Virus record (IMG/VR): IMGVR_UViG_3300040801_004793
Location: 57,017 to 121,016 of that record
Reading direction: 5' to 3' (one strand)
Length of the DNA stretch: 64,000 bases
Source: a virus
Part shown: piece by piece, positions 47,947 through 62,153 of the stretch
Layout: every line of letters starts with the position of its first letter
Position numbering within the stretch: the first letter of the stretch is position 1
Notes under the pieces: model-generated
What the model was told of the DNA's origin: nothing
Database searches by the model: none
Seen by the model: only the letters and a program-made list of their open reading frames with translations
Program-made: the position numbers and the translations under genes

Positions 47947-48252
47947 ATGAATAAAAGTGAACTGACCCGAGTGCTTTACACTCTGATTAACAAGAACGTT
48001 TCTGGTGGTTACATTACTCTTAATGGAGCAGCTTCCGTTCTGGAAGATCTTGTGGATACTGTTTTTGCCAGCGTAAAAGATGGTGGAGAAGTGAGACTGC
48101 CTAAACTAGGTAAGCTTTATACTACTCAGTGTGCCGGACGTACTATTCCCCACCCTCATATTGAAGGTCAAGCATTGCAAGTGCCTCCGTTTAAACAGAT
48201 TCAGTTTAAAGCTTTTGATAGCGCTAAGAAAGTTCTTAACAGCAGAGACTAA
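47947..48252 (+). CDS. HU/IHF-family DNA-binding protein
   Basis: The 101-residue protein matches HU/IHF along its length. MNKSELTRVLYTL is the opening helix. A second helix follows. The stretch VKDGGEVRLPKLGKLYTTQCAGRTIPHPHIEGQALQVP corresponds to GD-x-V-x-L-x-GFG-x-F plus the DNA-intercalating arm with its conserved proline region (RTIPHP instead of R-x-x-R-N-P). It ends in QFKAFDSAKKVLN. HU bends and compacts DNA, assisting packaging, replication or transcription control. It is the only small gene on the plus strand within the packaging genes and has its own promoter. It overlaps the end of terL by 4 bases. Confidence 0.85.
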   Translation: MNKSELTRVLYTLINKNVSGGYITLNGAASVLEDLVDTVFASVKDGGEVRLPKLGKLYTTQCAGRTIPHPHIEGQALQVPPFKQIQFKAFDSAKKVLNSRD

Positions 48253-50972
48253 TTAAATAGATCTCTTAATGTTCGAACGCTATTAGCATTAACAACTGAT
48301 CTAGAAGGCTTGGAGAAATCTCTAATTGGGGTTTCTCCTTTTTTATGTTCTGATAATAGATTCGAGTTTGGCCTTTCTACCCGGTTGTTTAGATTTCCAT
48401 AAGATTGGTCAAGTAGTTGTCTTATATGATTCTCGTTAATTATCATTGAGGAGACATTAGATGCCTTATAAGCAAACCAGTTTAAAGCTTGAGACGTTGC
48501 ATCTACCGCGTCGTCATACTTTGCTTTAGGAAAGCTAACTAATTCATGTATATACTTTTCTACCCAGTCAAATAGATTGGTAGATGGAATATAAATGTTA
48601 CCCGCTTCAAAATCTACAGAGCAAGCAGAAAGTCTTACTGTTTTATCTCCCCCGCCTATTTCTCTAGGTTCAATTCCAATTAAACCGGGAATTTCTTTTT
48701 TTAGAACATCTAGAGCTGCTCGGCCATTAGCTTTATCCTCTACAAGAACACTGCGGGTCATAGGCCACTTAGCTCTTAGATTGCGAATAGCTTGAATCTG
48801 ATTTGTAAAAACCCATTTACCAGAAACTTGATCTAGTAGAAACTTGTCTGTTCCTTTTTTACCCCACACTTGTCCACAGGTGTAATCTCCAGTATCCCCA
48901 AAAGAAAGATCCCAGGATTGAATTACCATATCGAAATTTCTAAGAGTATGTATATTAAAGGGAACTGCGTAGTGTTTAATCCAGTCTCTTTTTATAATTC
49001 CACCTTCTTTAGCAGCAGGCCTTTGTTGGTACTGTGCAGCATAACCATAGCTACCTAATTCCCTTTTAAGTCTTTTAACTTCATACTCGGGAAATCTTTC
49101 AGGCCATAAAATCTCGCCTTCTTTTTGCCGTGGATCTTTCCATCCTATACTAGTGAAGTATTTTACAGGTTCATATTCCATTGGTAGAGAAACAACTTCC
49201 CAACTCTCACTATCGTTCTCTCGAATAAAACCAATCAAGTCTTCATCGGATAATCTTTGGTGCATAACTACTCTACGGCTGTCAGGGGAATTTTTACGAG
49301 AAGTCATTGTTCCTGTCCACCACTCAATTACGGCTTGAATTGCAGGTTTCGAGTTTATTTCTTTTGGTTTGTGAGGGTCATCTACAATAAGAATGTCATA
49401 GCCCTCACCAACGGCTCGGCCTGAGATAGAAGTTGCAATACGATAGCCGTTGGATGTGTTCTCATATTTACTCTTTTGATTTGAACCTGGTTTGAGTGCA
49501 ACAAGTTTACCCCAATTTTTTTGAAACCAAGGAGACTCTATTAGCTGTCTACTCTTCACCGAGTCTCTTACAGCTAGAGAATCTCCATGAGCACAGGTAA
49601 TAAACTTTAGTGCAGGTTTCTGTATCCAGCTCCACACAGGAAAAGCAATGTTGATAATAGAACTGTTATGAGTAGGTATGAGATTTTTTCCGCAGAGATA
49701 CATTCCGTCTTCTGCTTCTACTGTGATACAGTTTCCAATTTCCCAGTCTTCTTCGGGAAGGTATTCAATTTTCTTAAAACCAATTTTAGGCTGAAGACAT
49801 AAACGAGATATTTTCTTTCGTGGTATAGCTGTTGGAAAAGGAATTGTTGGTTGGAAAGCTAGAGTGTAGACTTTTAGTTTTCCTTGAATGTTCCAGTTTC
49901 CGTAGTTATTTATAGAAGGTTCTGCTTCATAGATATGCGGTCTTTGTCCTAGAGACAGAAGAATCTCATAGGCTCCCTCTATGATTTGCCAGTTAGTATT
50001 TACAATGCGTACTCTATCTCTTGCCCCTACATGACCATCAGAATCAATGAGTCCAGCTATTAATTCACATCTCTGTTCTATAGAAGAATGAATATAAATT
50101 TCTGGTATGTGTTTGTTTCCCCAAACATTTAGCTCTTTAAGTTTTCGCGGTAGATCCTGATGTCCGAAGTAACTATCTATTGCATCAACCCCTTTGTTTT
50201 GATTCGAAGTTACGGAGAAACCTAACTCGGCTAATCTTTCTATAGACTGAAGATCAGCTGCGTGGTGTGTAATTCTAGGAGCTTTGCTATGTCCGTCTCC
50301 TAGCCATAGACCTAAAAAGTAAGGATGAAGAGGAAGATTTGCAGAGGGTTTTTCTAGAGCACTAATGTTAGGTAATTGGAATCTACTTCTATCTTGATTA
50401 GACTGATTCCATAAATCTATTAGTGTTTTAGTATCATAATTTTTTACGGTGTTTCTATGTCTGTATCTATCATATACAGCCCAAATATGATCTTCATTAC
50501 ACTTAATAGATTCTCCATTGGTAAAGGTAATTAGAATATTGGCAACATCATTCGGGTGTCTACTAATTACTTTTGTGGTGTTTCCTGAAGAGTGATAAAC
50601 TAAGTCTCCTTCTTTTAGTTGACCATGTGTAGTCCAGCCTTGAGGAGTTAGTATAGGTGTGCTACTAGCTAATAGTTTAGAGTGTCTAGGTGGACATTCA
50701 AAAATAATGTTTTGTATGTCTCCATGAAAGACAGCTTCTAGATGTTCGCAGATACATTGAAGATGCCAGTTACCTAAAAAAGGAACCGTTTCAAAAACAT
50801 CCCAGGAGTTTTGATAGAAATGGTATAGACTTTTTTGACTGTTTTCTACGGCTTCTTCTGTAAGCATACTTTGAAGTAAAGAAGAAGTTTCTTCATACTC
50901 TTCCATTAGTGTTTGAAGTTGAAGTTGTAAGTCTAATGCAGCCTTTGTAAGGGAAGGGTCTGAAAAGTTCAT
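48249..50972 (-). CDS. terL: Terminase large subunit interrupted by an intein
   Basis: The 907-residue precursor contains an intein at residues 100-436. Without it the terminase is 570 residues. The split Walker A is PPRHSK (residues 94-99), rejoined with SS (437-438). Walker B lies near residues 523-532 (ILIVDDPHKP). The nuclease domain has WDLSFGDTGDYT near 690, VEDKANGRAAL, and a final DDAVDATSQAL with the metal-binding acids. TerL is the ATP-driven motor and nuclease that fills the prohead. The intein must splice for ATP hydrolysis because it interrupts the nucleotide-binding loop. It lies between the HU gene and the PAS gene, each on the opposite strand. Confidence 0.9.
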   Translation of the reverse strand: MNFSDPSLTKAALDLQLQLQTLMEEYEETSSLLQSMLTEEAVENSQKSLYHFYQNSWDVFETVPFLGNWHLQCICEHLEAVFHGDIQNIIFECPPRHSKLLASSTPILTPQGWTTHGQLKEGDLVYHSSGNTTKVISRHPNDVANILITFTNGESIKCNEDHIWAVYDRYRHRNTVKNYDTKTLIDLWNQSNQDRSRFQLPNISALEKPSANLPLHPYFLGLWLGDGHSKAPRITHHAADLQSIERLAELGFSVTSNQNKGVDAIDSYFGHQDLPRKLKELNVWGNKHIPEIYIHSSIEQRCELIAGLIDSDGHVGARDRVRIVNTNWQIIEGAYEILLSLGQRPHIYEAEPSINNYGNWNIQGKLKVYTLAFQPTIPFPTAIPRKKISRLCLQPKIGFKKIEYLPEEDWEIGNCITVEAEDGMYLCGKNLIPTHNSSIINIAFPVWSWIQKPALKFITCAHGDSLAVRDSVKSRQLIESPWFQKNWGKLVALKPGSNQKSKYENTSNGYRIATSISGRAVGEGYDILIVDDPHKPKEINSKPAIQAVIEWWTGTMTSRKNSPDSRRVVMHQRLSDEDLIGFIRENDSESWEVVSLPMEYEPVKYFTSIGWKDPRQKEGEILWPERFPEYEVKRLKRELGSYGYAAQYQQRPAAKEGGIIKRDWIKHYAVPFNIHTLRNFDMVIQSWDLSFGDTGDYTCGQVWGKKGTDKFLLDQVSGKWVFTNQIQAIRNLRAKWPMTRSVLVEDKANGRAALDVLKKEIPGLIGIEPREIGGGDKTVRLSACSVDFEAGNIYIPSTNLFDWVEKYIHELVSFPKAKYDDAVDATSQALNWFAYKASNVSSMIINENHIRQLLDQSYGNLNNRVERPNSNLLSEHKKGETPIRDFSKPSRSVVNANSVRTLRDLFN
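49665..50675 (-). other. Intein with LAGLIDADG endonuclease, class 3 features
   Basis: 337 residues from L100 to N436 of the TerL precursor. The first residue is Leu, not the Cys or Ser of class 1 inteins, while LASSTPILTP fits block A. Block B carries DHIW (W164), block F GNCITVE (C415) and block G PTHN (T434-H435-N436) followed by Ser, the WCT triad of class 3 inteins. Homing endonuclease blocks are GLWLGDG (about 221-227) and AGLIDSDG (306-313). Insertion in the Walker A of terL targets a highly conserved sequence. Confidence 0.75.
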
Positions 50973-50990: not shown

Positions 50991-51015
50991 ATAAGAATGA
51001 ATTTATTCTTATAAT
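50991..51015 (+). promoter_or_regulatory. Promoter with overlapping inverted repeat, upstream of PAS gene
   Basis: The consensus -10 TATAAT (51010-51015) is only 5 bases before the ATG at 51021, so the transcript may be leaderless. The inverted repeat ATAAGAAT (50991-50998) / ATTCTTAT (51005-51012) overlaps the -10, as an operator would. The region also lies just upstream of terL on the other strand. Confidence 0.4.
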
Positions 51016-51020
51016 AACAG

Positions 51021-53195
51021 ATGTCCCCTAATCCATTACAAAATACAAATCTTGGTTCTGAATTAGTGAAGTATTTACCTTTTCCTCTCTTTGTAAAAAA
51101 CGTAAAAGGTAAATACGTTTACTTAAATCCTATACTTTTGGAACAAGCGAATAAAAATCTTAAGGATTTCCTAGATAGAGGAGATGAAGCTTTAGATAGA
51201 GACTCTCTGAGATGGTTAGCAAATGATCTTCGAGTCTTAGAAACAGAAGAGAGTATTCAAAAAGACTTTATCATTAAAGGTAAAAGCTATACAGTTATTA
51301 AGTTTGCTTTTAGAGATAGAAATGGTGATAAGTTTTTAGCTGGTTTTGCCATTGATCATAGTGATTCAGTAAAAGCTTTACATCAGCTTTCTATTTTTAA
51401 GAAGATCATTTTTTCTATGCATGATAGTTTAATGGTAGTCACTAATAGAAAAAATGGTAACTATCCTATATCTTATATAAACAAGTCCTTTACAGAGCTA
51501 ACACATTATAACTTCTCGGATATTCATCGAAAGTCTTACACTCTATTACAGGGGATAGATACAGATTCTTCTGTAATAGCAAATATAAATAGAACTCTTC
51601 TTTCTGAGATTGATGGTAGTTTTGTTTGTCAGTTGTACAGAAAGGATCGTACCTCTTTTTGGGCTCATTTAAAGATACTTCCTATTTATATAGATAGTAC
51701 GGATAAAGTGGGTTTTTTTGTTTTTCTGATAAGAGATATTAGTGAGGTTTTAGGTAAGAGAGAAGCTTTAGAAGCTAGTGAGAGAAGATACTCCAGTATT
51801 GTAGAAGATCAAACAGATTTAGTTTGTAGGTTTAGTTCTACGGGTTCTCTCACTTACTGTAATAGAGCTTTTAAAGATTTCTTTGGTTTAAAAGAGGATT
51901 CTACTGAATCTTTAAATTTTTATGATCTACTTAGTAAGGAAAGTCAAGAAACTATTGATGTATTAAAGAACAGCATTGACTTTCATACACCCGTAGTAAC
52001 ACATACACAAAAGACTTCTAATAAAGTAATTTCTTGGGTAATTAAGGGTCTGTATCATACCAAAAGTCAGAAGTTATTTGAGTATCAATGTATTGGTAGA
52101 GATATTACAGATTTACAGGAAACTCAACTAGCTTTAAGTAGCTTTGAAGAAAAGTATAAATCTATTTATCATAATACTCCTGCTCTATTACAGAGTCTTG
52201 ATGAGAATGGAATTATTGAAAAAGTGTCCAATCACTGGTTAAAGGTGTTGGGATATGAGTATCACGATGTTGTGGGTAAGAGTTTCTCTATCTTTTTAGA
52301 TGCTGAAAGTAGGCATAAGTTTAATAACGAAATTTGGCCTACTTATAAAAGAGAAGGTGAATGTCTTAATGTGGAATTGAGGGTATTAGATAAACATAGT
52401 AAATTACGTACTTTTCTAGTTTCCTTTGTACATAATGGAGAACTCGGTACGGTTACTAGTGTTTTATCTGATATTGATGAATTGCAAGAGACTAAGAATC
52501 GTTTGATAAAGAGCCAAAAACAATTTTCTACTCTGTTTTATAACAGTTATAGTTTATTAGTTTTATTAGATAGCTCAGGTAAGATACGAGATCTAAATAA
52601 TAGATTTTCTAGTGTATTTGGTGTAGAAAAAAAATCGGTATTACATACGATTTTGTGGGAAGCCTTTTGGTTAAAGTTGAATGAACAAAATCGAGAGTCT
52701 CTAGAAAAAAACTTTAAATACTCTGTAGCTGTAGAAAACGAACCTCAAACTTTTGAATTAGAGACTACGAATAAAGATGGTAGAGATCTTGTTTTAGATG
52801 TCACAATTAAGTCTATACGAGATCATTCGGGTAATGTTAGTTATGTCATATTTGAAGCTCGTGATATAACTTCTACTAAATTAAAGAATAAATCTTTAGA
52901 GAGTCACGCTAAGTTAGGTAAGGCTTTAGAAAATAAATTTCAAGTTTCAAAAAGAAAAGACTATGCTTCTTTAAATGAAGAGCAGATGGAAGAGCTTCTA
53001 CAAAACATCCTTACAAATAAAGCTCGTAGATTAATAGGTATACTTTGGCAAAGCATACCTAAAAAGAACGTTATTCTATTTCTAGGTCTTGTTTTAGCAG
53101 GTAGTCTTTTAGGTAATGGTCTGGTAAATGATATATACCAAGTGATTACTAATCCTATCTCAGTCTTTGAGAGAAACGTGGAACCTAAGAATTAG
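51021..53195 (+). CDS. Five-PAS-domain membrane protein without output domain
   Basis: The 724-residue protein contains five consecutive PAS-type domains, at about 14-114, 127-244, 253-372, 375-490 and 499-622. Each ends in the typical D-I-[ST]-x-x / DID-E-L C-terminal strand. A short charged linker follows, then one transmembrane helix (about 683-703, ILFLGLVLAGSLLGNGL) near the C-terminus. PAS2 has LOV-like features (LLQGIDTD, YRKDRTSFWAHLKILPI) but the photoactive Cys position is Tyr and other flavin residues are changed. No kinase, cyclase, GGDEF/EAL or DNA-binding domain is present. The domain order suggests a sensor or scaffold in the membrane. It lies on the opposite strand between the two terminase genes; its end overlaps terS by 11 bases. 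Confidence 0.75.
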   Translation: MSPNPLQNTNLGSELVKYLPFPLFVKNVKGKYVYLNPILLEQANKNLKDFLDRGDEALDRDSLRWLANDLRVLETEESIQKDFIIKGKSYTVIKFAFRDRNGDKFLAGFAIDHSDSVKALHQLSIFKKIIFSMHDSLMVVTNRKNGNYPISYINKSFTELTHYNFSDIHRKSYTLLQGIDTDSSVIANINRTLLSEIDGSFVCQLYRKDRTSFWAHLKILPIYIDSTDKVGFFVFLIRDISEVLGKREALEASERRYSSIVEDQTDLVCRFSSTGSLTYCNRAFKDFFGLKEDSTESLNFYDLLSKESQETIDVLKNSIDFHTPVVTHTQKTSNKVISWVIKGLYHTKSQKLFEYQCIGRDITDLQETQLALSSFEEKYKSIYHNTPALLQSLDENGIIEKVSNHWLKVLGYEYHDVVGKSFSIFLDAESRHKFNNEIWPTYKREGECLNVELRVLDKHSKLRTFLVSFVHNGELGTVTSVLSDIDELQETKNRLIKSQKQFSTLFYNSYSLLVLLDSSGKIRDLNNRFSSVFGVEKKSVLHTILWEAFWLKLNEQNRESLEKNFKYSVAVENEPQTFELETTNKDGRDLVLDVTIKSIRDHSGNVSYVIFEARDITSTKLKNKSLESHAKLGKALENKFQVSKRKDYASLNEEQMEELLQNILTNKARRLIGILWQSIPKKNVILFLGLVLAGSLLGNGLVNDIYQVITNPISVFERNVEPKN

Positions 53196-53859
53196 ACTTA
53201 ATTTCTTCTAATTGTTTTTTAATAACTTCTATATTCTTAGCGTTTTGTTCTCTTTTTTCAATAAGTTTAGAGATACGCTTTTCTCTTTGAAGGGCCTCTT
53301 CTGGATCATTAGAGTTGCCAATAAAGATCTCTTCAGCCAGAGACTTGTAAGCTTCAGCATCTCCATGTAGAGGTTCTCCTACGGTACGCCTAACAAGAAT
53401 TTGAGCTTTATCGAGAGTCTCTACTAGACTTTTAAGTTCATGAACTTTGATTGCTGGTAGAGACTCCCTATCTTCTTCTGATAGATCACGAATAGACACT
53501 GTTCCATCTGGATTAGACTCAAGAATATCGTACTGGTCAAAGAAAGCTTCTATAAGCCGATACATCTTTTTCATAGCAATGATCGTCATAGCGTCAAAAT
53601 GAGCGCTATCGGATATGTAACTATGTAGTGTGTTTTGAGCTGTCTTTTCTTTTAGTTTGGCTTGTAGGGCCTCACGTCTACTACTCCAACGCTCTTTCTG
53701 GCCTTTCTTACGTAGGTAGTCTAAATTCATACCATACTTCTTGTGAAGATCCTCATATGTGGGATACCAGTGTTTCTTGGTAAACGTTTCGGGATCTGTC
53801 ACAAAATAGCCAGTGATGTATTCGGTTGCTATCTGTTCCCAGGGATATTTCTCGTTCAT
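53185..53859 (-). CDS. Terminase small subunit-like protein
   Basis: The 224-residue protein begins MNEKYPWEQIATEYITGYFVTD. It continues with YPTYEDLHKKYGMNLDYLRKKGQKERWSSRREALQ, which resembles the small terminase helix-turn-helix: DL-x-x-KY-G, then helix, then E-x-W-x-x-R-x-x. A long helix with many Lys/Glu residues follows. It would recognise packaging sites and hand DNA to TerL. It lies upstream of terL in transcription order but is separated from it by the oppositely oriented PAS gene. Confidence 0.6.
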   Translation of the reverse strand: MNEKYPWEQIATEYITGYFVTDPETFTKKHWYPTYEDLHKKYGMNLDYLRKKGQKERWSSRREALQAKLKEKTAQNTLHSYISDSAHFDAMTIIAMKKMYRLIEAFFDQYDILESNPDGTVSIRDLSEEDRESLPAIKVHELKSLVETLDKAQILVRRTVGEPLHGDAEAYKSLAEEIFIGNSNDPEEALQREKRISKLIEKREQNAKNIEVIKKQLEEIKSNS

Positions 53860-53868: not shown

Positions 53869-54249
53869 TTATGGGTGATCTACTAATGTAGTGTATTTGA
53901 CGTTGTGTGGTAGGTAAGAAGGGTCACGTACGATAAAAGTAGTGTCTAAATCACATATAGAAGCATAGTCTTCTAGAGTAGTTTGTAATAGACGTGTTTC
54001 TGTCTCTCCTTTAGGTGAGAGGAGGTAAACGTGTTTTCCTAAGTCGAGAAGATGTAAAGCTGAGATTAGTAATTCTGTAGTACGTCCAGTTTGGGAAAAG
54101 ACATCTTCAGAATTAATGGGCTTCGCGTTATTTCGACTTTTGAGAATCATCAACATTTGACAAGGGTTTGACCACTTTGATCTGCGATTGATATAGACGT
54201 TGTGTGGCATCAAACCTAATTTTCTTCTAAACGTAGCTGTGTTATCCAT
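53869..54249 (-). CDS. Small protein with GRTT motif (unknown)
   Basis: This 126-residue protein shows two different parts. The N-terminal third contains HNVYINRRSKWSNPC, reminiscent of DUF4326-type (VYIGR-x-SKWGNPF) sequences. The middle has SQTGRTTELLISALHLLDLGKHVYLLSPKGETE, comparable to a TGRTT...A...GKHVY segment in small phage P-loop-like proteins. The two together are unusual, but neither is complete. It lies 9 bases before terS, in the same operon, and could act in packaging. Confidence 0.4.
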   Translation of the reverse strand: MDNTATFRRKLGLMPHNVYINRRSKWSNPCQMLMILKSRNNAKPINSEDVFSQTGRTTELLISALHLLDLGKHVYLLSPKGETETRLLQTTLEDYASICDLDTTFIVRDPSYLPHNVKYTTLVDHP

Positions 54250-54547
54250 TAGGATGTGGTCCTTAATTTAAGGTGTACTTAAACATTCTAACATGATGAA
54301 AAAATGTATCACAGTGGTATAGGGTGACTTGTGTAGGGTAGTGATAGCAGGTAGTGAGGTAGTGAGAGAGAGCAGTATAAGAAGGGTAGGGTAGGAAGAA
54401 GGCTAGTTTTGGTAAATGGTGGAGAGAATGGTTTGTAGTCATAGAACACCCTCCATCCCATATACCGCAAGCGATCCAGCCATTTTTCGCGGTGTTATAC
54501 TGTGTTCAACAGGGAGAGAAATATCCCGCTCGGTTGAGACCTATCGG
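54250..54547. other. Non-coding region at junction of AT-rich and GC-rich parts
   Basis: This region has no convincing gene. Its first half is purine-rich (repeated GTAGG/GTAGTGA motifs), and base composition changes to GC-rich toward its end. A possible -10 (TATACT near 54496) lies about 50 bases before the long structured RNA described next. A 76-codon frame (54416-54646) covers both but reads through the hairpin and is not supported. Confidence 0.4.
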
Positions 54548-54628
54548 TTTCCTGAGTCCCGAATAGTAAACCGCCTATATAGAGGGAAGGAACCTCTATC
54601 GGCAAACTACTATAAAGGACTCAGGAAA
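54548..54628 (+). ncRNA. Long multi-stem RNA hairpin upstream of the GC-rich gene array
   Basis: A strongly nested structure. The outer 12-bp stem is TTTCCTGAGTCC (54548-54559) with GGACTCAGGAAA (54617-54628). Inside it are ATAGTA (54563-54568) with TACTAT (54608-54613), GCC/GGC, then ATAGAGG (54579-54585) with CCTCTAT (54593-54599) around a 7-base loop. It ends 28 bases before the ATG of the first gene in the array. It may be a leader for that gene or a processed small RNA. Confidence 0.6.
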
Positions 54629-54656
54629 TCCAAACCACATAATTGAGGATCAAATC

Positions 54657-55508
54657 ATGACAACTTCAATGTTAGCGCTCCGTAAAACGGAGCTTAACCC
54701 CGATATGGTTGCCGCCTTTAACGAAGGCAAGCTGATTGGCTACGCTACCACCGCTAGCGGCAATTTTAAGGGTGCTGCCGTGGGGAAGTTACACCGGGCA
54801 CTTAATAGCACGCTACCCCAAAGGGTCAAGCCGTTTAGTCACAGTGTCAACTGTGACACCCTCCCGGTGTCCTTGAGTGCTGGGGTGTCGTATCGCCTCG
54901 CCCTGGAATTTAAGGTGGAATCTGTCAGCGATACAAGCGAGGGCGCGGGCTTTAGCTTTAGCCTCCTCTATCGGCCTAATCAGGCTAAAGATCAGGGTAC
55001 CCTAGTGCGGGAACTCACCCGCCATGGTTATCCCGTTGAGGGTACCTTGAAAGTCTCCGTTTCCAATCTTGATAGTCCGTTCCCGAATTATTCGGCTCAG
55101 CTATCCGACACGGAATCGGTCGATAATACGTCGGAAACTAAGTTGGCACAATGGGTCAAAGTCCTGACCCCCATGGCAGAAAAGATCTACGATAAGGCGC
55201 TAGGGGTGACCCTAGCGCTCCCCTTAATGGAGTTCTATCTCGGGGGAACCATGTCTCTCAAAACCGTGTCTAAACTGGCATGGTCCGTATTCGTAGCGCG
55301 GTATAGCCGCGAAAGCCCTAATATTTTCCTAACTACGGAGGCCGCATATACAATGTGTTCCCTGCTAGGACGATTCCTAGCTACGTCCCCTTACTCTAGC
55401 GTCGAGCCTACACGGGCTCTCGTTAGTACCCTAGAAGTCGATTGGGACTTCCTCACAAAATACAGCTATTCGTTGGATGAAAATACGGACGAATTCGAGG
55501 TAATGTAA
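54657..55508 (+). CDS. Hypothetical protein, first gene of GC-rich array
   Basis: The 283-residue protein is unknown. It has a Ser/Val/Leu-rich first half with segments such as PVSLSAGVSYRLALEFKVES, suggesting beta strands. The C-terminal half contains helices (KLAQWVKVLTPMAEKIYDKAL, KTVSKLAWSVFVARYS). A ribosome binding site TTGAGGAT precedes the ATG. It uses many GC-rich codons (GCC, CTC, CCC), unlike the structural genes left of 54 kb. It is preceded by a structured RNA and followed by the first pseudoknot leader. No enzyme motif seen. Confidence 0.55.
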   Translation: MTTSMLALRKTELNPDMVAAFNEGKLIGYATTASGNFKGAAVGKLHRALNSTLPQRVKPFSHSVNCDTLPVSLSAGVSYRLALEFKVESVSDTSEGAGFSFSLLYRPNQAKDQGTLVRELTRHGYPVEGTLKVSVSNLDSPFPNYSAQLSDTESVDNTSETKLAQWVKVLTPMAEKIYDKALGVTLALPLMEFYLGGTMSLKTVSKLAWSVFVARYSRESPNIFLTTEAAYTMCSLLGRFLATSPYSSVEPTRALVSTLEVDWDFLTKYSYSLDENTDEFEVM

Positions 55509-55513
55509 TCTAT

Positions 55514-55551
55514 ACCGGGGGGGTTACTAACCCGGTAAAACCACAGTAACC
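55514..55551 (+). promoter_or_regulatory. Leader pseudoknot (variant with 7-bp second stem)
   Basis: Stem 1 is ACCGGG (55514-55519) with CCCGGT (55531-55536). The loop has GGTTACT (55522-55528), which pairs with AGTAACC (55545-55551), an H-type pseudoknot. The Shine-Dalgarno is a G-rich GGGGGGAGG (55570-55578) before the ATG at 55584, and GTAG/CTAC flank it. It differs in sequence from the other leaders but shares topology. Confidence 0.5.
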
Positions 55552-55583
55552 ATAACTAAGTAGAGTGTAGGGGGGAGGCTACG

Positions 55584-56276
55584 ATGGACCCGATTCATTT
55601 TAATCACTTAAGCTGTGAACAAATCACAGCAGCTACAGACCGAATTGTGGTCTATCGCAGCACCGCTAAGGTGGAATGGCTTGAACTTCATGCCGTACGG
55701 TCCCCCTATGGGGATGTTACAGGGTGGACCGTCACTAGACACAAATCCTGTGCTTTGACTCTGGAGACCGATAGTACCGGAATCCATAAAGGGTATGGCG
55801 AGGAGCCTACCTTAGATCATCGGGGTTACCTGACCCATAGTGCCAATATAGGAACCATTAAGGATGGGTTCCCGTTTGAACCATCATCCGACTATTTTTC
55901 CTTCTCCGATCGGGAAAATGCCTGGATTCCCGGTTGCCTTGGCAGAGCCCGGTCTGCCTTAGCTGAAGGCACCCTGTTTATAGCCGTCGAAGGCCATGGG
56001 GCTATGATCGGCTCCGTAGCCTATCAGTATCTCACGGGCATGATGCCCAAAGGGTCCGAGTCCATAGCCTTAACCCGTGCTATCGGGAAGGCACGTAAGC
56101 TAGAGCCTATTCCCGGCTCCGTAGACTGCCCTCTATACCACTATCGGGGTAGGGTAGCTACCGGCTCCAAGATCCCGAAACGGGATCTGCTAATCTATAA
56201 GCTGGCTCAGGATGAGTCGGTCTGGGGATTTTATATTCCCCAGGGAATAAATTTTGCCCGCAAGCGTAGGCGTTAA
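55584..56276 (+). CDS. Hypothetical protein (GC-rich array)
   Basis: The 230-residue protein is unknown. It begins MDPIHFNHLSCEQITAATDR and has beta-like segments (IVVYRSTAKVEWLELHAV). The centre has FIAVEGHGAMIGSVAYQYL, then KARKLEPIPGSV. It ends NFARKRRR, which looks like the FARK tag but lies at the C-terminus and is probably coincidental. The gene is followed by a strong terminator. Upstream leader described above. Confidence 0.55.
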   Translation: MDPIHFNHLSCEQITAATDRIVVYRSTAKVEWLELHAVRSPYGDVTGWTVTRHKSCALTLETDSTGIHKGYGEEPTLDHRGYLTHSANIGTIKDGFPFEPSSDYFSFSDRENAWIPGCLGRARSALAEGTLFIAVEGHGAMIGSVAYQYLTGMMPKGSESIALTRAIGKARKLEPIPGSVDCPLYHYRGRVATGSKIPKRDLLIYKLAQDESVWGFYIPQGINFARKRRR

Positions 56277-56305
56277 CGCTGCGGGATCGTATTCTATATT
56301 TTTTC

Positions 56306-56333
56306 CCGAAGGAATTTCTTCGGTATTTTTTTT
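56306..56333 (+). terminator. Rho-independent terminator
   Basis: CCGAAG (56306-56311) pairs with CTTCGG (56318-56323) with a 6-base loop, followed by TA and a run of eight T. It ends the unit with the 230-residue gene. Confidence 0.85.
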
Positions 56334-56417
56334 GTCTCTGAAAGTCTGCATTTTTATGTAGGCTCTTTTTTTGTACCCTTTTAGGGGGTGTCAAAAAAAC
56401 TGAGAGAGACACGGGTT

Positions 56418-56455
56418 AAGAAATTCTCCCTGGTGACAGTACCTAAAAATTTCTT
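56418..56455 (+). ncRNA. Structured leader element, copy 1
   Basis: AAGAAATT (56418-56425) pairs with AATTTCTT (56448-56455), and inside it GGTG (56432-56435) pairs with TACC (56440-56443) around ACAG. An internal loop separates the stems. The same element recurs at 63470-63508, where changes keep the pairing (G-T wobble in stem 1; GGTA/TACC in stem 2). It is followed by the leader pseudoknot at 56472 and the gene at 56507. Confidence 0.6.
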
Positions 56456-56471
56456 TTCGTAACACACTTTT

Positions 56472-56501
56472 GGGCTGGCATCCCGATATCACTGCTAGGA
56501 G
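56472..56501 (+). promoter_or_regulatory. Leader pseudoknot plus Shine-Dalgarno (variant TGGCA/TGCTA)
   Basis: GGG (56472-56474) pairs with CCC (56482-56484). The loop TGGCA (56476-56480) pairs with TGCTA (56493-56497) (one G-T wobble). AGGAG (56497-56501) follows, spaced normally to the ATG at 56507. Belongs to the leader family by topology while its stem 2 differs from the common GCGC version. Confidence 0.5.
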
Positions 56502-56506
56502 AAACC

Positions 56507-56761
56507 ATGGAATCTAACACCACGTTCAAGAAAGTTGTCGGTGAAGGGAAAGGGGGGTGGATCCCCTACTCCACCCTGTCCTGCAACGGACAAACCCGGG
56601 AGGGTGCCCAACTGTGGGTACCCATATCACAGTACGGGAGGGACTACTGGGATCTTACCCAGGCCCTCGACTACGGGGGAGTCCTCCTTTCGGAGGAGGA
56701 CACCATGGCGGCCCTAGCCGTTGGGGAGGGTTCCCCAGTCACAGGGGGTAACCTGTATTAG
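56507..56761 (+). CDS. Small hypothetical protein
   Basis: The 84-residue protein (MESNTTFKKVVGEGKGGW...) is not recognised. It has a Trp/Tyr-containing middle (LWVPISQYGRDYWDLTQALDYG), then LSEEDTMAALAVGEG. Two other frames are open across it because the DNA is GC-rich, but this frame has the Shine-Dalgarno and leader. It has the same 5' leader architecture as the gene at 63556, but their proteins are not evidently related. Confidence 0.5.
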   Translation: MESNTTFKKVVGEGKGGWIPYSTLSCNGQTREGAQLWVPISQYGRDYWDLTQALDYGGVLLSEEDTMAALAVGEGSPVTGGNLY

Positions 56762-56779
56762 ACCCCCAAACACAACTAG

Positions 56780-56810
56780 GGGTACTGTTCACGAGAGCAC
56801 GGCAGTACCC
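56780..56810 (+). other. Intercistronic hairpin
   Basis: GGGTACTG (56780-56787) pairs with CAGTACCC (56803-56810) with a 15-base loop. A related motif GCAGTACCCACAC followed by TCAC recurs near 60288. It may shield the 3' end of the preceding message or act as a weak terminator; no T run follows. Confidence 0.45.
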
Positions 56811-56837
56811 ACACCTCACACACTGTAAAACATACTA

Positions 56838-56863
56838 GGGGAGCGCCCCATACAGCGCAGGAG
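56838..56863 (+). promoter_or_regulatory. Leader pseudoknot plus Shine-Dalgarno (copy A)
   Basis: GGG/CCC hairpin with GCGC in its loop, able to pair with GCGC at 56855-56858, directly before AGGAG (56859-56863). From the hairpin to the ATG it is nearly identical to the leader at 58168-58193. Gene start at 56869. Confidence 0.55.
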
Positions 56864-56868
56864 AAATC

Positions 56869-57504
56869 ATGGGTTGGTTAATGCAGCGATCTGTTACTGT
56901 CGATGGGTTGAAAGTGGAGCTAGATTCCGTCAACTCGACGGATATAGAGGGAGGGACAGCACCTCCCCAGCCAAAGGTTTTCGTAGTAGAAGCACCCCTC
57001 CCCATGGGGCTAAATGACCACAAAGGATTTATTCTCTGCAAGGTAGGAGATGAATTACTATACTCCTACGGCCCCCGCCGGGAGGTGATAGAAGTGGTCG
57101 CCTTTGCATTTGAAGGTGACTGCCAGTGGACTCCCGTTGACGTTTGGAAGAAGCGCTGGGATCTTGCTAGATTCGTGGTCCCTTTGGGCCATGAATATTT
57201 TGAAGACGAGGAGTACGGAGAGTGGGTCCAAGGCGACTACAAGGGGATTGAGTTTATCCCCTCACCCGAAAAGGAGGGAAGACGTGCACGATATGTTCGA
57301 TGGGTCTGCACGGGATACCGTCAGGACGAAGGGTACTGGTGCCCTTGGGATGAAGCAGGGGCACACCCTTGCCAATGGGAAGACGTTGTTGCCCTGGTTG
57401 CGGACAAAAGGGGCGGGAAGCATCCCTTCGCTATCGCGGAGGCAGTGACAGTCCTCCCTGAGGGAGACTGCACGTTTTTGGAGGGAGTTGAGGCCGTCGC
57501 TTGA
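56869..57504 (+). CDS. Hypothetical protein (211 aa)
   Basis: The start at 56869 is set by the leader and Shine-Dalgarno. The product is acidic and Trp/Gly-rich, with segments such as VVEAPLPMGLNDHKGFILCK and PVDVWKKRWDLARFVVPLG. WVCTGYRQDEGYWCPWDEAG contains Cys and Trp but no known metal-binding pattern. Function unknown. It is one of several leader-carrying genes. Confidence 0.5.
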   Translation: MGWLMQRSVTVDGLKVELDSVNSTDIEGGTAPPQPKVFVVEAPLPMGLNDHKGFILCKVGDELLYSYGPRREVIEVVAFAFEGDCQWTPVDVWKKRWDLARFVVPLGHEYFEDEEYGEWVQGDYKGIEFIPSPEKEGRRARYVRWVCTGYRQDEGYWCPWDEAGAHPCQWEDVVALVADKRGGKHPFAIAEAVTVLPEGDCTFLEGVEAVA

Positions 57505-57526
57505 CCCTTTTTCACTAACCCCACAC

Positions 57527-57550
57527 CCCCGCCCTGGCTCACTACCGGGG
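57527..57550 (+). other. Intercistronic C-rich/G-rich hairpin
   Basis: CCCCG (57527-57531) pairs with CGGGG (57546-57550). Equivalent hairpins (CCCC, 10-14 bases, GGGG) follow most genes of the array. Here no T run follows, so termination would be weak. Confidence 0.4.
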
Positions 57551-57570
57551 CACCTCACACATAAACTTTA

Positions 57571-57598
57571 GGGACGCGCCCCCGTAATAGCGCAGAGG
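57571..57598 (+). promoter_or_regulatory. Leader pseudoknot plus Shine-Dalgarno (copy B)
   Basis: GGG at 57571-57573 pairs with CCC (57581-57583). The loop GCGC can pair with GCGC at 57590-57593. GAGG at 57595-57598 follows. Gene start at 57604. Confidence 0.5.
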
Positions 57599-57603
57599 AT
57601 AGG

Positions 57604-58110
57604 ATGGAAAATACTTTAACCAAGCTGCAACTTCGACGCTATTCCGTTCAAGAAGTGAAAAGCCTATTGAACCTAAACGGATTCTCCAACGGGCAGCATT
57701 ACGCTGCCTGGAGCAAGGTCAAAATGGACTCCGTAGACTGGAATTTTGCGGAAGAGGCGATGCGATGCTTTGAGTCCATTGACCCATCTACGCTTGATGG
57801 GATGGAGGATCTGCTCCGCTTTATGAAAAGGGGTGGGCGAGAATCCTGCTCCGCCATATCCCTTGTTAAGGGAGCGAGTTCGTTTTCTGTTCGGGTGGCT
57901 CCTAGCATCGCCACCGGGCGGCTTGATGACACCGCATGGACTTCCGTATCCACCTGCTGGGATGCGGGACAGTACAGCCTCGCATTTGCCCAATTGGGCA
58001 CTAAGGGCAGCGCACCTTGGGGCTGCGTCTGCTCCCAAGTGCGGTTTATCCGTTTAGGCAATACCCCGGAATTAAGTCACAAGGCCGTAGACATCATGCG
58101 TACGGCTTAG
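57604..58110 (+). CDS. Hypothetical protein (168 aa)
   Basis: The 168-residue protein is unknown. It begins MENTLTKLQLRRYSVQEVKSL with a helical N-terminus and has a Ser/Trp-rich middle (SCSAISLVKGASSFSVRVAPS). Several other long frames exist on both strands because of the GC content, but only this one has a Shine-Dalgarno and leader. It ends before a C-rich/G-rich hairpin with T run near 58120-58155. Confidence 0.5.
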   Translation: MENTLTKLQLRRYSVQEVKSLLNLNGFSNGQHYAAWSKVKMDSVDWNFAEEAMRCFESIDPSTLDGMEDLLRFMKRGGRESCSAISLVKGASSFSVRVAPSIATGRLDDTAWTSVSTCWDAGQYSLAFAQLGTKGSAPWGCVCSQVRFIRLGNTPELSHKAVDIMRTA

Positions 58111-58167
58111 CCTCGCATCCCACCTCCGCTCGGGCTAACCACTGGGGCTTTTTGCACCAAAACTCTA

Positions 58168-58193
58168 GGGGAGCGCCCCTTACAGCGCAGGAG
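58168..58193 (+). promoter_or_regulatory. Leader pseudoknot plus Shine-Dalgarno (copy C)
   Basis: GGG/CCC hairpin (58168-58170 with 58177-58179) whose loop GCGC can pair with GCGC (58185-58188), before AGGAG (58189-58193). One base differs from copy A over the leader. Gene start 58199. Confidence 0.55.
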
Positions 58194-58198
58194 AAATC

Positions 58199-58537
58199 AT
58201 GACCATTCGTATCGTTCACGCATTACCAAACTCTTGGTTCCCCATACCGGGGGCTAAGGTGACCATGGCGGGGTTGACCGCTGCACAGGTTTCCGAAATC
58301 TGTCATCGGCATGAGGTCATTTCACACGTCAGGTACCCGGATCATGCCGAGAATATCAGCAAGGAACTGGGGGTTGACCTCCCAGTAGGAGTTGAAAACG
58401 CCCCGTCCCCTGCTGGTAGTGCTGACACGTTTATCGTGGCTTCCCGTCGCTTTGATGGGGGCATTGATTACGTCCATGTCTGGGACGCAAATCCGGACTA
58501 TGCAGAACTTGAGTTTCTGCATGAACAATCATTTTAA
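58199..58537 (+). CDS. Possible DUF1874/B116-like protein (viral ring-nuclease superfamily, inactive-looking)
   Basis: The 112-residue protein may belong to the DUF1874 superfamily (which includes the viral ring nuclease AcrIII-1). The alignment is a segment ISHVRYPDHAENISKELG followed by VDLPV. It fits the family pattern S-x-[IV]-x-x-x-x-x-A-E-x-[LI]-S-x-x-LG-V-x-x-PV and comes after a helix (GLTAAQVSEICHRH). The family's catalytic His position is Tyr46 here, although nearby His43 and His49 exist. If related, it may bind cyclic oligoadenylate without cleaving it, or do something else. It is short, single-domain, and encoded within the accessory array where anti-defence genes are common. Confidence 0.4.
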   Translation: MTIRIVHALPNSWFPIPGAKVTMAGLTAAQVSEICHRHEVISHVRYPDHAENISKELGVDLPVGVENAPSPAGSADTFIVASRRFDGGIDYVHVWDANPDYAELEFLHEQSF

Positions 58538-58543
58538 GGGGAC

Positions 58544-58999
58544 ATGGATATAGACTTAGAGTGGCTTGCTAGACTTAGCGAAGCTATAGAGGCCTGGCAC
58601 ACCTCGGGAAACCAAGAGACAGAGTGGATTGAAGTGTCGCTCTGGACTGACCCCCCACAAGAGTTTCTAGATTACGAGCAGTTGTGTCTAAAAGGGGGTC
58701 TGGGGTCTCTTTTGGATTATGGAAGCGGGTGCGACCTCTTGGAAAATTTTCAGGATTGTTTAGCCCAGAGCCTAGATCCTTCACAGGGTTGGAGATTTAA
58801 GCTAGCCGTTGCTCTTAACTCCCTATCTTGGGAACAACGGTACCGGACTGGCAAAAAACCATTCATCTGGGAATATATAGCCCGGACCTCTTATAAGCAA
58901 ACACCAGAAGAGTGTGAAAAATTTCTCCGGCAATTTTGCATCTCTGTAGGAGAGTGGCAAAAAGATGACCGTGGGAACTTCTGTGAAATTGCTTATTAA
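58544..58999 (+). CDS. Hypothetical protein (151 aa), coupled to the previous gene
   Basis: It starts 6 bases after the stop of the previous gene, with an AAGGGG ribosome binding site and no pseudoknot leader. Its sequence is acidic and helical with many Trp (MDIDLEWLARLSEAIEAW, WRFKLAVALNSLSWEQRY). No motif recognised. It is the only gene pair in this part of the array that shares a single leader. Confidence 0.5.
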   Translation: MDIDLEWLARLSEAIEAWHTSGNQETEWIEVSLWTDPPQEFLDYEQLCLKGGLGSLLDYGSGCDLLENFQDCLAQSLDPSQGWRFKLAVALNSLSWEQRYRTGKKPFIWEYIARTSYKQTPEECEKFLRQFCISVGEWQKDDRGNFCEIAY

Positions 59000-59044
59000 G
59001 ACAGAGTACCTCCACGCCCAGACTAACCCCCATAAAAAACATAA

Positions 59045-59070
59045 GGGTCGCGCCCTGTACAGCGCGGAGG
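59045..59070 (+). promoter_or_regulatory. Leader pseudoknot plus Shine-Dalgarno (copy D)
   Basis: GGG (59045-59047) pairs with CCC (59053-59055). The loop CGCG can pair with CGCG at 59063-59066. GGAGG (59066-59070) follows. Gene start 59076. Confidence 0.5.
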
Positions 59071-59075
59071 ATAAC

Positions 59076-59912
59076 ATGACTTCAGTGTGTGCATTCAAGA
59101 TACAGTACGAAAAAGTGTCGAACAACACCGCCCGCTGGGTGAAATCCAGCTTTGAAGAGGCGGAGTATATCGAAGCCGAGACCAACCACCCCGACGGGAT
59201 ACACTCGTCTTGCGCCGTTCGGCGTATAGATGAGGAAACCCGGCGCTTTCTCATCAAACACCGGGAGGGCAGACAGTTAGGTCGGGTTTCCTACGTATCC
59301 CTTTGCAGAAAGATAACTGCAAGGGAGTTAACAGAGGATCAAATACCTCTGTTAATTCGACGATGTATGAAAGCGAAAGGCCTTGAGGCCGTACGTCGAT
59401 ACGGCAGCAATAACAAGTATGTCCTCGACTGGGGATACGACGTAATGGCCGGATTAGAAGTGGAACCTCTAATCGAGTCATCTCCACTGCCGGACCTCCG
59501 GCCAAAGCTATTTGAAAAGACGAAAAAGGGCTTTACGTTTAAGGCTCCAAAGGGGTGTACCCATCCCAAGAATCTGGAGCATCTACCGAATTGGCTTACA
59601 GTAAAGGTAGAGCCTTACAATAGTCTGTCAGATTATGTGACGGAACTAACTATCAAGAAGCCCATCACTCCAGGGCTAGTCGAGGAGCTTAATAAACTTG
59701 CTAAGGAGGTCGATCACTCTTTGAGGAATAGTGATCGACGGATTGCGGGGGAGGACGTGCTCATGTGCTCCACCCTCTACTTTATTTACAAAAGTGCCAT
59801 GTTTAGTGTCTCTAAAGCTCTAGACCTGGCGCTTAAAGATACAAAAGGCGATGTTAGCAAGGCTACCGCCTTATTAAACTCGGGTACGCCGCCCGATTAT
59901 CGCGTCGATTAA
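59076..59912 (+). CDS. Hypothetical protein (278 aa)
   Basis: The start at 59076 lies after the leader, so a longer reading from 58965 is rejected. The protein (MTSVCAFKIQYEKVSNNT...) has a charged helical layout: ELTEDQIPLLIRRCMKAKGLEAVRRYG, a Pro-rich part, then EELNKLAKEVDHSLRNSDRR. It ends with ALDLALKDTKGDVSKATALLN, a helix suggestive of a DNA-binding Fis-like pattern, but this is not established. Function unknown. Confidence 0.5.
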   Translation: MTSVCAFKIQYEKVSNNTARWVKSSFEEAEYIEAETNHPDGIHSSCAVRRIDEETRRFLIKHREGRQLGRVSYVSLCRKITARELTEDQIPLLIRRCMKAKGLEAVRRYGSNNKYVLDWGYDVMAGLEVEPLIESSPLPDLRPKLFEKTKKGFTFKAPKGCTHPKNLEHLPNWLTVKVEPYNSLSDYVTELTIKKPITPGLVEELNKLAKEVDHSLRNSDRRIAGEDVLMCSTLYFIYKSAMFSVSKALDLALKDTKGDVSKATALLNSGTPPDYRVD

Positions 59913-59960
59913 TCTAGTTGACCCCCCGGCTAACCACTGGGGCATCTCACAACAACTTTA

Positions 59961-59988
59961 GGGGAGCGCCCCCGTAAGAGCGCGGAGA
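59961..59988 (+). promoter_or_regulatory. Leader pseudoknot plus Shine-Dalgarno (copy E)
   Basis: GGG (59961-59963) pairs with CCC (59971-59973). The GCGC of the loop can pair with GCGC (59980-59983). GGAGA (59984-59988) follows. The start is a GTG at 59995. Confidence 0.5.
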
Positions 59989-59994
59989 GTCACA

Positions 59995-60237
59995 GTGTTT
60001 GAATCCTTCGAAACTTTTATCGCCCAAGTAAACGAATGCTTTCCGGGCGCAGAGTGCATTATGTACTCCCCCGGTTTGTACATCGGAAGGCGGCAGGGGG
60101 TCGAAATTAGATACGACGAGGACGGCTGGTACGCCGAACTTGTAGGAGTCGGTGGGAAGGGGGACACTCTAGAGTTGGCGATTGCCGATTCTATTGCAGT
60201 GTCCGAAGAACACTGGCAAGCGCAGCAAGACCGTTAA
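59995..60237 (+). CDS. Small hypothetical protein (80 aa)
   Basis: The GTG start lies directly after the leader. The protein MFESFETFIAQVNECFPGAE... has helix-strand-strand pattern (CIMYSPGLYIGRRQGVEIRYDEDGWYAELVG), then a C-terminal helix (DTLELAIADSIAVSEEHW). This resembles a small antitoxin-like or dsRNA-binding-like fold but no motif is specific. Ends before an intrinsic terminator. Confidence 0.5.
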   Translation: MFESFETFIAQVNECFPGAECIMYSPGLYIGRRQGVEIRYDEDGWYAELVGVGGKGDTLELAIADSIAVSEEHWQAQQDR

Positions 60238-60257
60238 CCTTAAGTCAGTTTGCACCC

Positions 60258-60283
60258 GCCCCGGTGGTTTGCAGGGGCTTTTT
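60258..60283 (+). terminator. Rho-independent terminator
   Basis: GCCCC (60258-60262) pairs with GGGGC (60274-60278), followed by TTTTT. It separates the 80-residue gene from the pentapeptide-repeat gene. Confidence 0.7.
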
Positions 60284-60315
60284 GTGGGCAGTACCCACAC
60301 GTCACGTAAAAATAA

Positions 60316-60341
60316 GGGATGCGCCCCGTACAGCGCAGGAG
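60316..60341 (+). promoter_or_regulatory. Leader pseudoknot plus Shine-Dalgarno (copy F)
   Basis: GGG (60316-60318) pairs with CCC (60325-60327). The loop TGCGC can pair with GCGCA (60333-60337), a fifth pair beyond the usual four, before AGGAG (60337-60341). Gene start 60347. Confidence 0.55.
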
Positions 60342-60346
60342 ATGAA

Positions 60347-60995
60347 ATGGAAAGAGTCAAGGGGTACGTTATTGGCCCTCGGGTTAATCTTCAGGGGGCC
60401 AACCTGGAGGAGGCTAACCTTCGGGATTCTGACCTTTGGGAGGCTAACCTTCGGGGGGCCAACCTCCTAAAGGCCAAACTTCAGCTGGCTATCCTTCGGG
60501 AAGCTGACCTTAGGAGGGTCAATCTTCAGGAGGCCAAACTTCAGGGGGGCTGACCTTCAGGAGGCAAATCTTCAGGGGGCTGACCTAATGCAGGCGGATC
60601 TGATCGGGGCGGACCTGCGCCATGCCAACCTGCGGGGGGCCAACCTGGTGGGCGCTGACCTGAGAAGGACCAGACTTCTGGGGGCGAATCTGAAAGGTGC
60701 AACCGGGATTAAGGAGGTTCCTCGGTCCCCCATCCCCGGCCTAGCCCAACAAGTGCTAGAGCAAATTACACAGAATCCCGAGTCTCTGAACCAAAAAGTT
60801 TGGCACTCATCCTGCGGAACTGCCCACTGCACGGCAGGGTGGACTGTGGTTTTATCTGGCCCAATCGGGCTAGCCGCAGAAAAACGGCTCGGGACAAGGG
60901 GAGCCGCCGAAATTCTACTGGGTGGATCTAATCACCCATTTGGGATCTACGATGATCCCATCCCTTGGTTGAAAGAGATGGCAGCCAATTCGTAG
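60347..60995 (+). pseudogene. Pentapeptide-repeat protein, frameshifted
   Basis: Two adjacent frames encode one protein. The first runs from the ATG at 60347 to a TGA at 60551-60553 and holds about 10 pentapeptide repeats (A[DN]LxX, for example ANLEEANLRDSDLWE). The second continues from about 60549 with ADLQEANLQGADL and about 7 more repeats, then a conserved C-terminal domain (LAQQVLEQITQNPESLNQ ... CGTAHCTAGW ... AAEILLGG). Removing one G from a run of six (60544-60549) restores a single frame of about 215 residues. The frameshift may be a mutation, phase variation, programmed +1 shift or sequencing error. Pentapeptide repeats form a right-handed beta helix and often mimic DNA. The leader upstream is intact. 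Confidence 0.7.
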
Positions 60996-61035
60996 GTCAA
61001 TTAATAGTCAGCCGGGAATTTTTGCACCACCACTA

Positions 61036-61061
61036 GGGACGCGCCCTGTACAGCGTGGAGG
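61036..61061 (+). promoter_or_regulatory. Leader pseudoknot plus Shine-Dalgarno (copy G)
   Basis: GGG (61036-61038) pairs with CCC (61044-61046). The loop CGCG can pair with CGTG (61054-61057) with one G-T wobble. GGAGG (61057-61061) follows. Gene start 61067. Confidence 0.5.
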
Positions 61062-61066
61062 ACGAG

Positions 61067-61495
61067 ATGGAAACGACAGTAGCCAAAATACTGAAAGGGG
61101 AGATCAAGGGTTATTTCTTGCCTCTCCATTCAGAATGTGAAGAAGGCATCCTCATCTACTCGGAGGGCCTGCGGGGGATCAACAAAATGGCTCTCATAGC
61201 AGCAGCCAAGGGTAATCTTCGTCACCCTACATCATGCTCAAGAATGAGGGTTCTACTTGAATCCGGGAAAGAACAAGTCCGGGTCTACTCTGGCTGGGAG
61301 GCAGCCCAGTCGGACGCTAATATTTGGGGGTCTTTCAAAAAAGAGTGTTACTTAGTAGCCTCTACAAGGGTAGCAGGAGGCGCAGGACTCACCTATTGGA
61401 AGGGAGGTCGTCCCCAAGGATCGGGGGGAAGCACTTTTGTTCTTAGCACATACCAAAGGCGTGACGGGAGCCTCAGAACAAAAGTCCTATATTAG
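61067..61495 (+). CDS. Hypothetical protein (142 aa)
   Basis: I choose the ATG at 61067, after the leader, over a GTG at 61055 inside the Shine-Dalgarno. The protein (METTVAKILKGEIKGYFLP...) is mixed alpha/beta, with EEGILIYSEGLRGINKMALIAAAKGN and a Gly-rich C-terminal part (VAGGAGLTYWKGGRPQGSGG). No motif recognised. Part of the leader-carrying array. Confidence 0.5.
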   Translation: METTVAKILKGEIKGYFLPLHSECEEGILIYSEGLRGINKMALIAAAKGNLRHPTSCSRMRVLLESGKEQVRVYSGWEAAQSDANIWGSFKKECYLVASTRVAGGAGLTYWKGGRPQGSGGSTFVLSTYQRRDGSLRTKVLY

Positions 61496-61562
61496 TTCAT
61501 CCCGTAGCAATGCTTACCCCCGACCTGGTTAATCACAGAACATTTCGAATCGTAGAATCATA

Positions 61563-61588
61563 GGGACGCGCCCTGTACAGCGCGGAGG
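61563..61588 (+). promoter_or_regulatory. Leader pseudoknot plus Shine-Dalgarno (copy H)
   Basis: GGG (61563-61565) pairs with CCC (61571-61573). The loop CGCG can pair with CGCG (61581-61584). GGAGG (61584-61588) follows. Almost identical to copy G. Gene start 61594. Confidence 0.5.
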
Positions 61589-61593
61589 ATGAG

Positions 61594-61815
61594 ATGATGG
61601 AAAGATTAGACCTTGGCGACAACGTTGGCGAAAGATGTACCGACCCTGGGTGGTATGTGGAGATTCAGTACACAAAAGACCAGGATGACGAGTGTTACAT
61701 CTTCTACTCCGAAGATGGGGTGGTGAGTTACAACCTCAACGATTACCAGTTTTTGGGTCCATTCGACTCAGAGCAGGAAGCTCTTTTCGTGAAAAAGAGA
61801 CATTACCCTGAATGA
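61594..61815 (+). CDS. Small hypothetical protein (73 aa)
   Basis: The 73-residue acidic protein (MMERLDLGDNVGERCTD...) has strands and aromatic residues (GWYVEIQYTKDQDDECYIFY, YNLNDYQFLGPFDSEQEALF). It may be a small beta-barrel-like or DNA-mimic-like protein given its acidity, but nothing specific is seen. A second ATG 3 bases later is an alternative start. Confidence 0.5.
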   Translation: MMERLDLGDNVGERCTDPGWYVEIQYTKDQDDECYIFYSEDGVVSYNLNDYQFLGPFDSEQEALFVKKRHYPE

Positions 61816-61816
61816 G

Positions 61817-61843
61817 TACCGCGCCCCCACAAGATCGAGGAGG
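61817..61843 (+). promoter_or_regulatory. Degenerate copy of leader element plus Shine-Dalgarno (copy I)
   Basis: CGCGCCCCC and a downstream TCGAGGAGG resemble the leader family, but the GGG strand and second pairing are mostly lost. The 5' end overlaps the previous stop codon. The Shine-Dalgarno is intact and the gene starts at 61849. Confidence 0.35.
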
Positions 61844-61848
61844 ATAGC

Positions 61849-62133: not shown

Positions 62134-62153
62134 GCAGTCTCAACACCCACCCC

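Follow-up and report, generated by a model that had tools for sequence, protein, structure and literature searches.

What is a membrane-anchored array of PAS domains doing between the two terminase genes of a phage? Lytic phages borrow metabolic genes; a sensor array that carries no output domain is an odd phage cargo and must act through partners. Here, we analysed this locus in a window of 64,000 nucleotides, the whole stretch of DNA under study, which corresponds to positions 57017-121016 of a virus record of 121,016 bases. The record begins and ends with the same 117 bases and is therefore a complete circular assembly of ~120.9 kb, so that statements on absent genes cover the whole genome.

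The gene and its place in the terminase junction

The frame at 51021-53195 (plus strand) starts with ATG, spans 724 codons and is a real gene, the product of which (724 aa) we call P0001. None of the other five frames over the same bases holds more than 76 open codons, the codon-position bias of the gene is strong, and a frame of 724 codons would arise at the local base composition with a chance probability of ~1.7e-28. Its GC content of 31% is the lowest among the genes compared, the neighbours having 38-39%. The codon usage resembles that of the phage structural genes, which argues that the gene is settled in the phage and not a fresh accident. On a larger scale, we observed a ~20-kb block (54300-64000 of the window plus record 1-11000 across the circle) with 42-53% GC against ~36% elsewhere and a GC3 of ~55% in its window part, which is compositionally foreign within the complete genome.

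On the left of the PAS gene lies terL, the large terminase gene (48249-50972, minus strand), assigned by PHROG and Pfam matches and containing an intein with a LAGLIDADG domain at about 49665-50675. By eye, this intein lacks the N-terminal Cys and is possibly of class 3. ThyX of the same phage is split by an HNH/NUMOD4 intein (L003 17265-19001), and the Mu-F-like head protein of a relative (L006 280-5457) carries an apparent intein-like insert ('HPILTTNGF...IVAHN'), with an endonuclease-like frame at 2665-3534 of L006 on the strand opposite to the head gene. On the right lies a gene at 53185-53859 (minus strand), for the product of which no convincing family match was found. We assign it as terS, the small terminase gene, because its homologs precede terL in two other genomes: in the 127-kb record L042, which has a TerL at 43% to that of this phage, the homolog (27% over 227 aa, E=1.5e-21) stands one gene before terL, and in Methanobacterium virus Drs3 it lies 84 bp before it. 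The other opposite-strand gene in this region encodes an HU-like DNA-binding protein (47947-48252, plus strand) and flanks terL; it runs against the packaging and head genes, an orientation shared by its counterparts in L005 and L042.

This confirmed that the PAS gene is placed on the opposite strand, between the two terminase genes, as proposed by a first-pass annotation of the window. The same annotation had described an overlap with the terminase genes from end to end. This is correct on the side of terS, where both genes overlap tail to tail by 11 bp at their 3' ends, and incorrect on the side of terL, where a gap of 48 bp separates the two gene starts. Since terS overlaps terL in Aeromonas phage 56 and in Roseobacter phage CRP-901, and the two sit within 84 bp of each other in Drs3, the PAS gene is an extra gene in the junction; like phage morons, it stands between genes that adjoin each other in these three. 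The nearest relative, L042, carries a different gene at this place.

The gap contains a 9-bp inverted repeat (50991-51012, z -2.3) that overlaps a TATAAT sequence (51010-51015), a possible promoter or operator 5 nt before the ATG of the PAS gene. If used, the TATAAT could give the gene a leaderless start. The earlier suggestion that the gene has its own promoter finds this element in its favour and, against it, the lack of any -35 element and a number of promoter-like matches around the gene that does not exceed chance. A terminator scan of the PAS gene found none. Separately, a candidate phage-wide promoter motif derived from TTATTCTTATAAT was rejected, as its match count was no higher than chance.

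Architecture of the encoded protein

The first-pass annotation had read five tandem PAS domains, one transmembrane helix and no output domain from the letters of the sequence. Profile, single-domain and hydropathy scans agree with this architecture, which we regard as well supported. On P0001, the S-box profile TIGR00229 matches in four stretches with E=6e-45 (152 bits, cut-off 22.9) and PF13426 with E=3e-36 (124 bits, cut-off 27). When scanned as single domains, PAS2 (51435-51746, aa 139-242), PAS3 (51786-52103, aa 256-361), PAS4 (52149-52475, aa 377-485) and PAS5 (52521-52868, aa 501-616), all on the plus strand, gave E values of 9e-13, 5e-6, 2e-8 and 5e-10, respectively. The putative PAS1 (51075-51356, plus strand, aa 19-112) is weak: its PAS_4 match (E=0.0024) is below the curated cut-off, no PDB sequence match was found for it, and its assignment rests mainly on its position within the repeat.

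Fold modelling by domain covered PAS5 alone. Its AlphaFold2 model reached a pLDDT of 80.8 with an alignment made of PAS3 and PAS4 only, and all 50 PDB matches listed were PAS/LOV or PAS-containing entries, the best being the PAS domain of NifL (E=1.9e-7). For full-length P0001 with no alignment, the AlphaFold2 model was uninformative (pLDDT 32.7).

The hydropathy profile of P0001 has one peak, at aa 683-702 (53067-53126, plus strand), with a Kyte-Doolittle value of 2.23, compared to a maximum of no more than 1.46 in a comparison set of seven other phage proteins. With this helix, followed by a tail of 22 aa, and a soluble N-terminal part, P0001 is predicted to be a tail-anchored protein. Searches against Pfam and NCBIfam found no kinase, cyclase, phosphodiesterase, chemoreceptor, DNA-binding or other output domain on P0001, and no convincing family match for its C-terminal 96 aa. 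The protein therefore falls outside the class of sensor histidine kinases, PAS-GGDEF-EAL proteins and chemoreceptors, for want of an output domain. A kinase or cyclase output and a wide occurrence as a known phage virion gene were the two findings that the first-pass annotation had named as speaking against its reading; neither appeared.

Relatives in other phages and in the same junction

Do other phages carry such proteins? We found no close relative of P0001 in phage, viral-contig or genome collections. Among 50,697 phage records searched by tblastn, detectable relatives occur in only two phages (three records) and four Listeria contigs, in line with the earlier remark that multi-PAS proteins are rare in phages. 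The four matches labelled 'Listeria phage' are short unannotated contigs and probably represent host LOV genes. The two phages are the jumbo phages Atu_ph07 (Agrobacterium) and Phosso (Sinorhizobium), with 28-31% identity to P0001. Their PAS proteins are related to each other (31%), and the two phages are therefore counted as one lineage. In both, the PAS gene is preceded by a gene for an 81-aa protein with a single transmembrane helix (Phosso, L007 2874-3119; Atu_ph07, L008 2559-2801); these small proteins are 37% identical and occur in no other phage record. The record name of the Atu_ph07 protein gp049, 'multi-sensor signal transduction histidine', is misleading, as no kinase part was found. 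In the open literature, we found no account of phage multi-PAS or PAS-only proteins; PAS goes unmentioned in the main texts of the Atu_ph07 paper (PMC6102473), of a related rhizobiophage paper (PMC11242549) and of a jumbo-phage survey (PMC7824862).

Searches for relatives of the phage itself via TerL, PolA and the GGDEF-EAL protein described below found none at close range, and a capsid search recovered two short contigs only, both ending before terL. Matches to the class II RNR (L010-L013) led to phages with neither a PAS nor a TerL match and were set aside. L042 and this phage have in common terS, the opposite-strand HU gene and a related head protein. We also observed in both many small basic proteins that start with FARKKGS(R/K)DK (34679-39021 of the window; L042 9723-11054). 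Neither PAS nor EAL was found in the L042 record. Between its terS and terL, and on the same strand, it encodes a 268-aa protein with an N-terminal transmembrane helix and a domain with an FHNG motif. Relatives of this protein occur in the Microcystis phages Ma-LMM01 and MaMV, Synechococcus phage B23 and Nonlabens phage P12024S, and the gene is solitary and on the opposite strand in Ma-LMM01 and B23. Since just one of four members of the family matches GAF (E=0.009), we call it GAF-like only tentatively.

The FHNG family is found mostly in cyanophages, and Nodularia siphophages are among the sources of the nearest named DNA polymerases that match over a long stretch; on both grounds, the host is likely a cyanobacterium. 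The first-pass annotation took the PAS gene as probably acquired from the host. In 146 cyanobacterial genomes, for each of which the best seven candidates were scored, the best matches to P0001 spanned one to four PAS domains at 22-34% identity, and the best genome reached 24% over two to three. As no donor was identified among these genomes, and with the codon usage being that of phage structural genes, host acquisition is unproven. A match in the cyanobacterium Adonisia (L009) proved to be a chance match of 15 residues with no corresponding frame.

Possible modes of action and known systems

The first-pass annotation had suggested that P0001 interacts with or blocks a PAS sensor of the host, or else reports a state to the phage. 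This is plausible and gains two clues, one from the junction protein of L042, membrane-anchored and possibly GAF-like, and one from a signalling enzyme of the phage itself. Just left of the window (L004 14090-16057, which is record 54090-56057), a gene encodes a 655-aa GGDEF-EAL protein with an SGDEF motif, the sole EAL enzyme of the genome. Its EAL catalytic motifs are intact, the RxxD inhibitory site is absent just before GGDEF, the N-terminus is weakly PAS-like (E 0.009-0.02), and a 104-aa gene with a single transmembrane helix precedes it. In the whole genome, we found no histidine-kinase ATPase (HATPase_c), no PilZ domain, no tyrosine integrase and no second S-box PAS protein. Two further gene groups were observed outside the window. 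About ten paralogous FGE-sulfatase/SUMF1-like genes, most of which end in FGF, stand in tandem (L002 4557-12381, record coordinates), and a cluster at L003 12093-16054 (record 32093-36054) encodes a weakly matching JAB-like protein of 465 aa, a ThiF/E1-like protein with PRTRC_ThiF as its nearest family (below cut-off) and two unassigned proteins; this cluster is possibly a phage-borne system of ubiquitin-like or PRTRC type.

Because the complete genome is without HATPase_c, there is no phage kinase for P0001 to serve, and because P0001 has no catalytic or output part either, it can act only via contact. We therefore favour, tentatively and with somewhat less than even confidence, the reading that P0001 is an accessory, membrane-tethered sensor array that acts on a signalling enzyme of host or phage by PAS-PAS contact. 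Its C-terminal helix, as predicted by hydropathy, would insert in the inner (or thylakoid) membrane of the host and leave the PAS array in the cytoplasm. There, the PAS domains could pair with PAS domains or coiled-coil linkers of the enzyme, tether it to the membrane and alter its activity, perhaps depending on a ligand or redox state read by at least one of them. The likeliest targets would be a host multi-PAS kinase, a host c-di-GMP enzyme or the phage GGDEF-EAL protein. Consistent with this are the PAS architecture with no output, the PAS5 model and its PDB matches, the membrane helix, the phage-like codon usage, the GGDEF-EAL enzyme with its EAL motifs and weakly PAS-like N-terminus, the L042 junction protein, and the multi-PAS proteins of Atu_ph07 and Phosso, likewise output-less, on the opposite strand and behind an 81-aa single-helix gene. 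However, the PAS and GGDEF-EAL genes lie ~52 kb apart, PAS domains often merely self-dimerise, and the GAF assignment in the L042 junction is weak.

The main rival, which we consider rather unlikely, is that the gene is a moron-like passenger, i.e. a PAS array from the host that was inserted between the terminase genes and is retained with little effect on infection. The solitary, opposite-strand position between genes that adjoin or overlap in other phages, the lowest GC of the block and the failure to find a homolog in the relatives recovered would fit a passenger. However, its 724-codon frame has stayed intact with a phage-like codon usage, neither a terminator nor a convincing promoter of its own was found, and L042 also holds a membrane protein at this place; a lysogenic benefit is not evident either, because no integrase was found.

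An unlikely possibility is that P0001 regulates specifically the phage GGDEF-EAL enzyme, the two forming a split c-di-GMP sensor of a membrane PAS array and a cytosolic enzyme. Both genes occur together in this complete genome and the L042 record has neither, the EAL residues of the enzyme are intact, and a small membrane protein is encoded before it. Yet the co-occurrence amounts to one genome in which the genes are far apart, the enzyme matches PAS only weakly at its N-terminus, and no PilZ effector was found in the phage. It is more doubtful still that P0001 times the infection, controlling lysis or exclusion according to what it reads of superinfection or of the redox or energy state. The membrane anchor, the small single-helix proteins next to the PAS proteins of Atu_ph07 and Phosso, and a peptidase M15 gene adjoining the FHNG-family gene in P12024S are compatible with such a role, but the PAS gene lies in the packaging block and away from the DPBB lytic-transglycosylase gene (record 24419-25003), and the small membrane proteins match lysis families no better than E~0.1.

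A light sensor of the LOV or another flavin type is very improbable, even if the best matches of PAS2 are the LOV domains of YtvA, PpSB1-LOV and phototropin. As noted from the letters before and now seen in alignment with YtvA, PAS2 is LOV-like and has lost the photoactive Cys of the GXNCRFLQ motif, which is replaced by Tyr. In the same motif, Asn is changed to Ser and Arg to Thr; FWN reads FWA, and Ile stands in place of the beta-5 Gln, which leaves the motif Gln as the only flavin-contact residue kept. The roles of these residues in flavin contact are those known from YtvA and phototropins. Having lost four flavin-contact residues in addition to the photoactive Cys, PAS2 is not a LOV photoreceptor.

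If functional, P0001 may enable the phage to tap into host signalling or to disturb it, and both phage sensing of host physiology via its own membrane receptors and phage rewiring of host c-di-GMP or kinase signalling become directly testable. The membrane protein in the L042 junction and the PAS-only genes of two jumbo phages hint at something beyond a single chance event. We speculate, with low confidence, that some phages have, as solitary accessory genes, a class of PAS or GAF-like proteins that are tethered to the membrane and lack an output; these would read the state of the host at the membrane, act by contact on second-messenger enzymes of host or phage, and tune the infection to the host condition.

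How does P0001 compare to known systems? By sequence, PAS2 belongs to the class of the LOV photoreceptors (YtvA, the short LOV proteins PpSB1 and PpSB2), but it differs from them by the missing photoactive Cys and the loss of most flavin contacts. The short LOV proteins PpSB1 and PpSB2 likewise have no output domain. Bacterial multi-PAS proteins (S-box, TIGR00229), such as c-di-GMP phosphodiesterases and sensor kinases, contain the same class of PAS repeat, whereas members of these families terminate in an output domain, be it a kinase, GGDEF/EAL or another, that P0001 does not have. The FHNG family is also membrane-anchored, with a possibly sensory fold, and occupies the same junction in L042; however, its helix is N-terminal and its domain single, and the likeness seen is one of slot and anchor. 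In BFVD, uncultured Caudovirales phages and Cellulophaga phage phi19:1 have PAS-fold proteins of uncharacterised function, with 165-240 aa and thus space for about one PAS domain, in contrast to the multi-PAS P0001. The closest parallels are Atu_ph07 gp049 (536 aa) and the PAS S-box protein of Phosso (434 aa), which are PAS-only, output-less and encoded opposite to their surrounding genes, as here, yet have fewer PAS domains and no clear transmembrane helix, belong to phages of 470-490 kb, and share their 28-31% identity with P0001 over one or two domains only. Phage PAS-only proteins were thus already known, yet uncharacterised; new here are the five domains, the membrane anchor of their own and the place between terS and terL.
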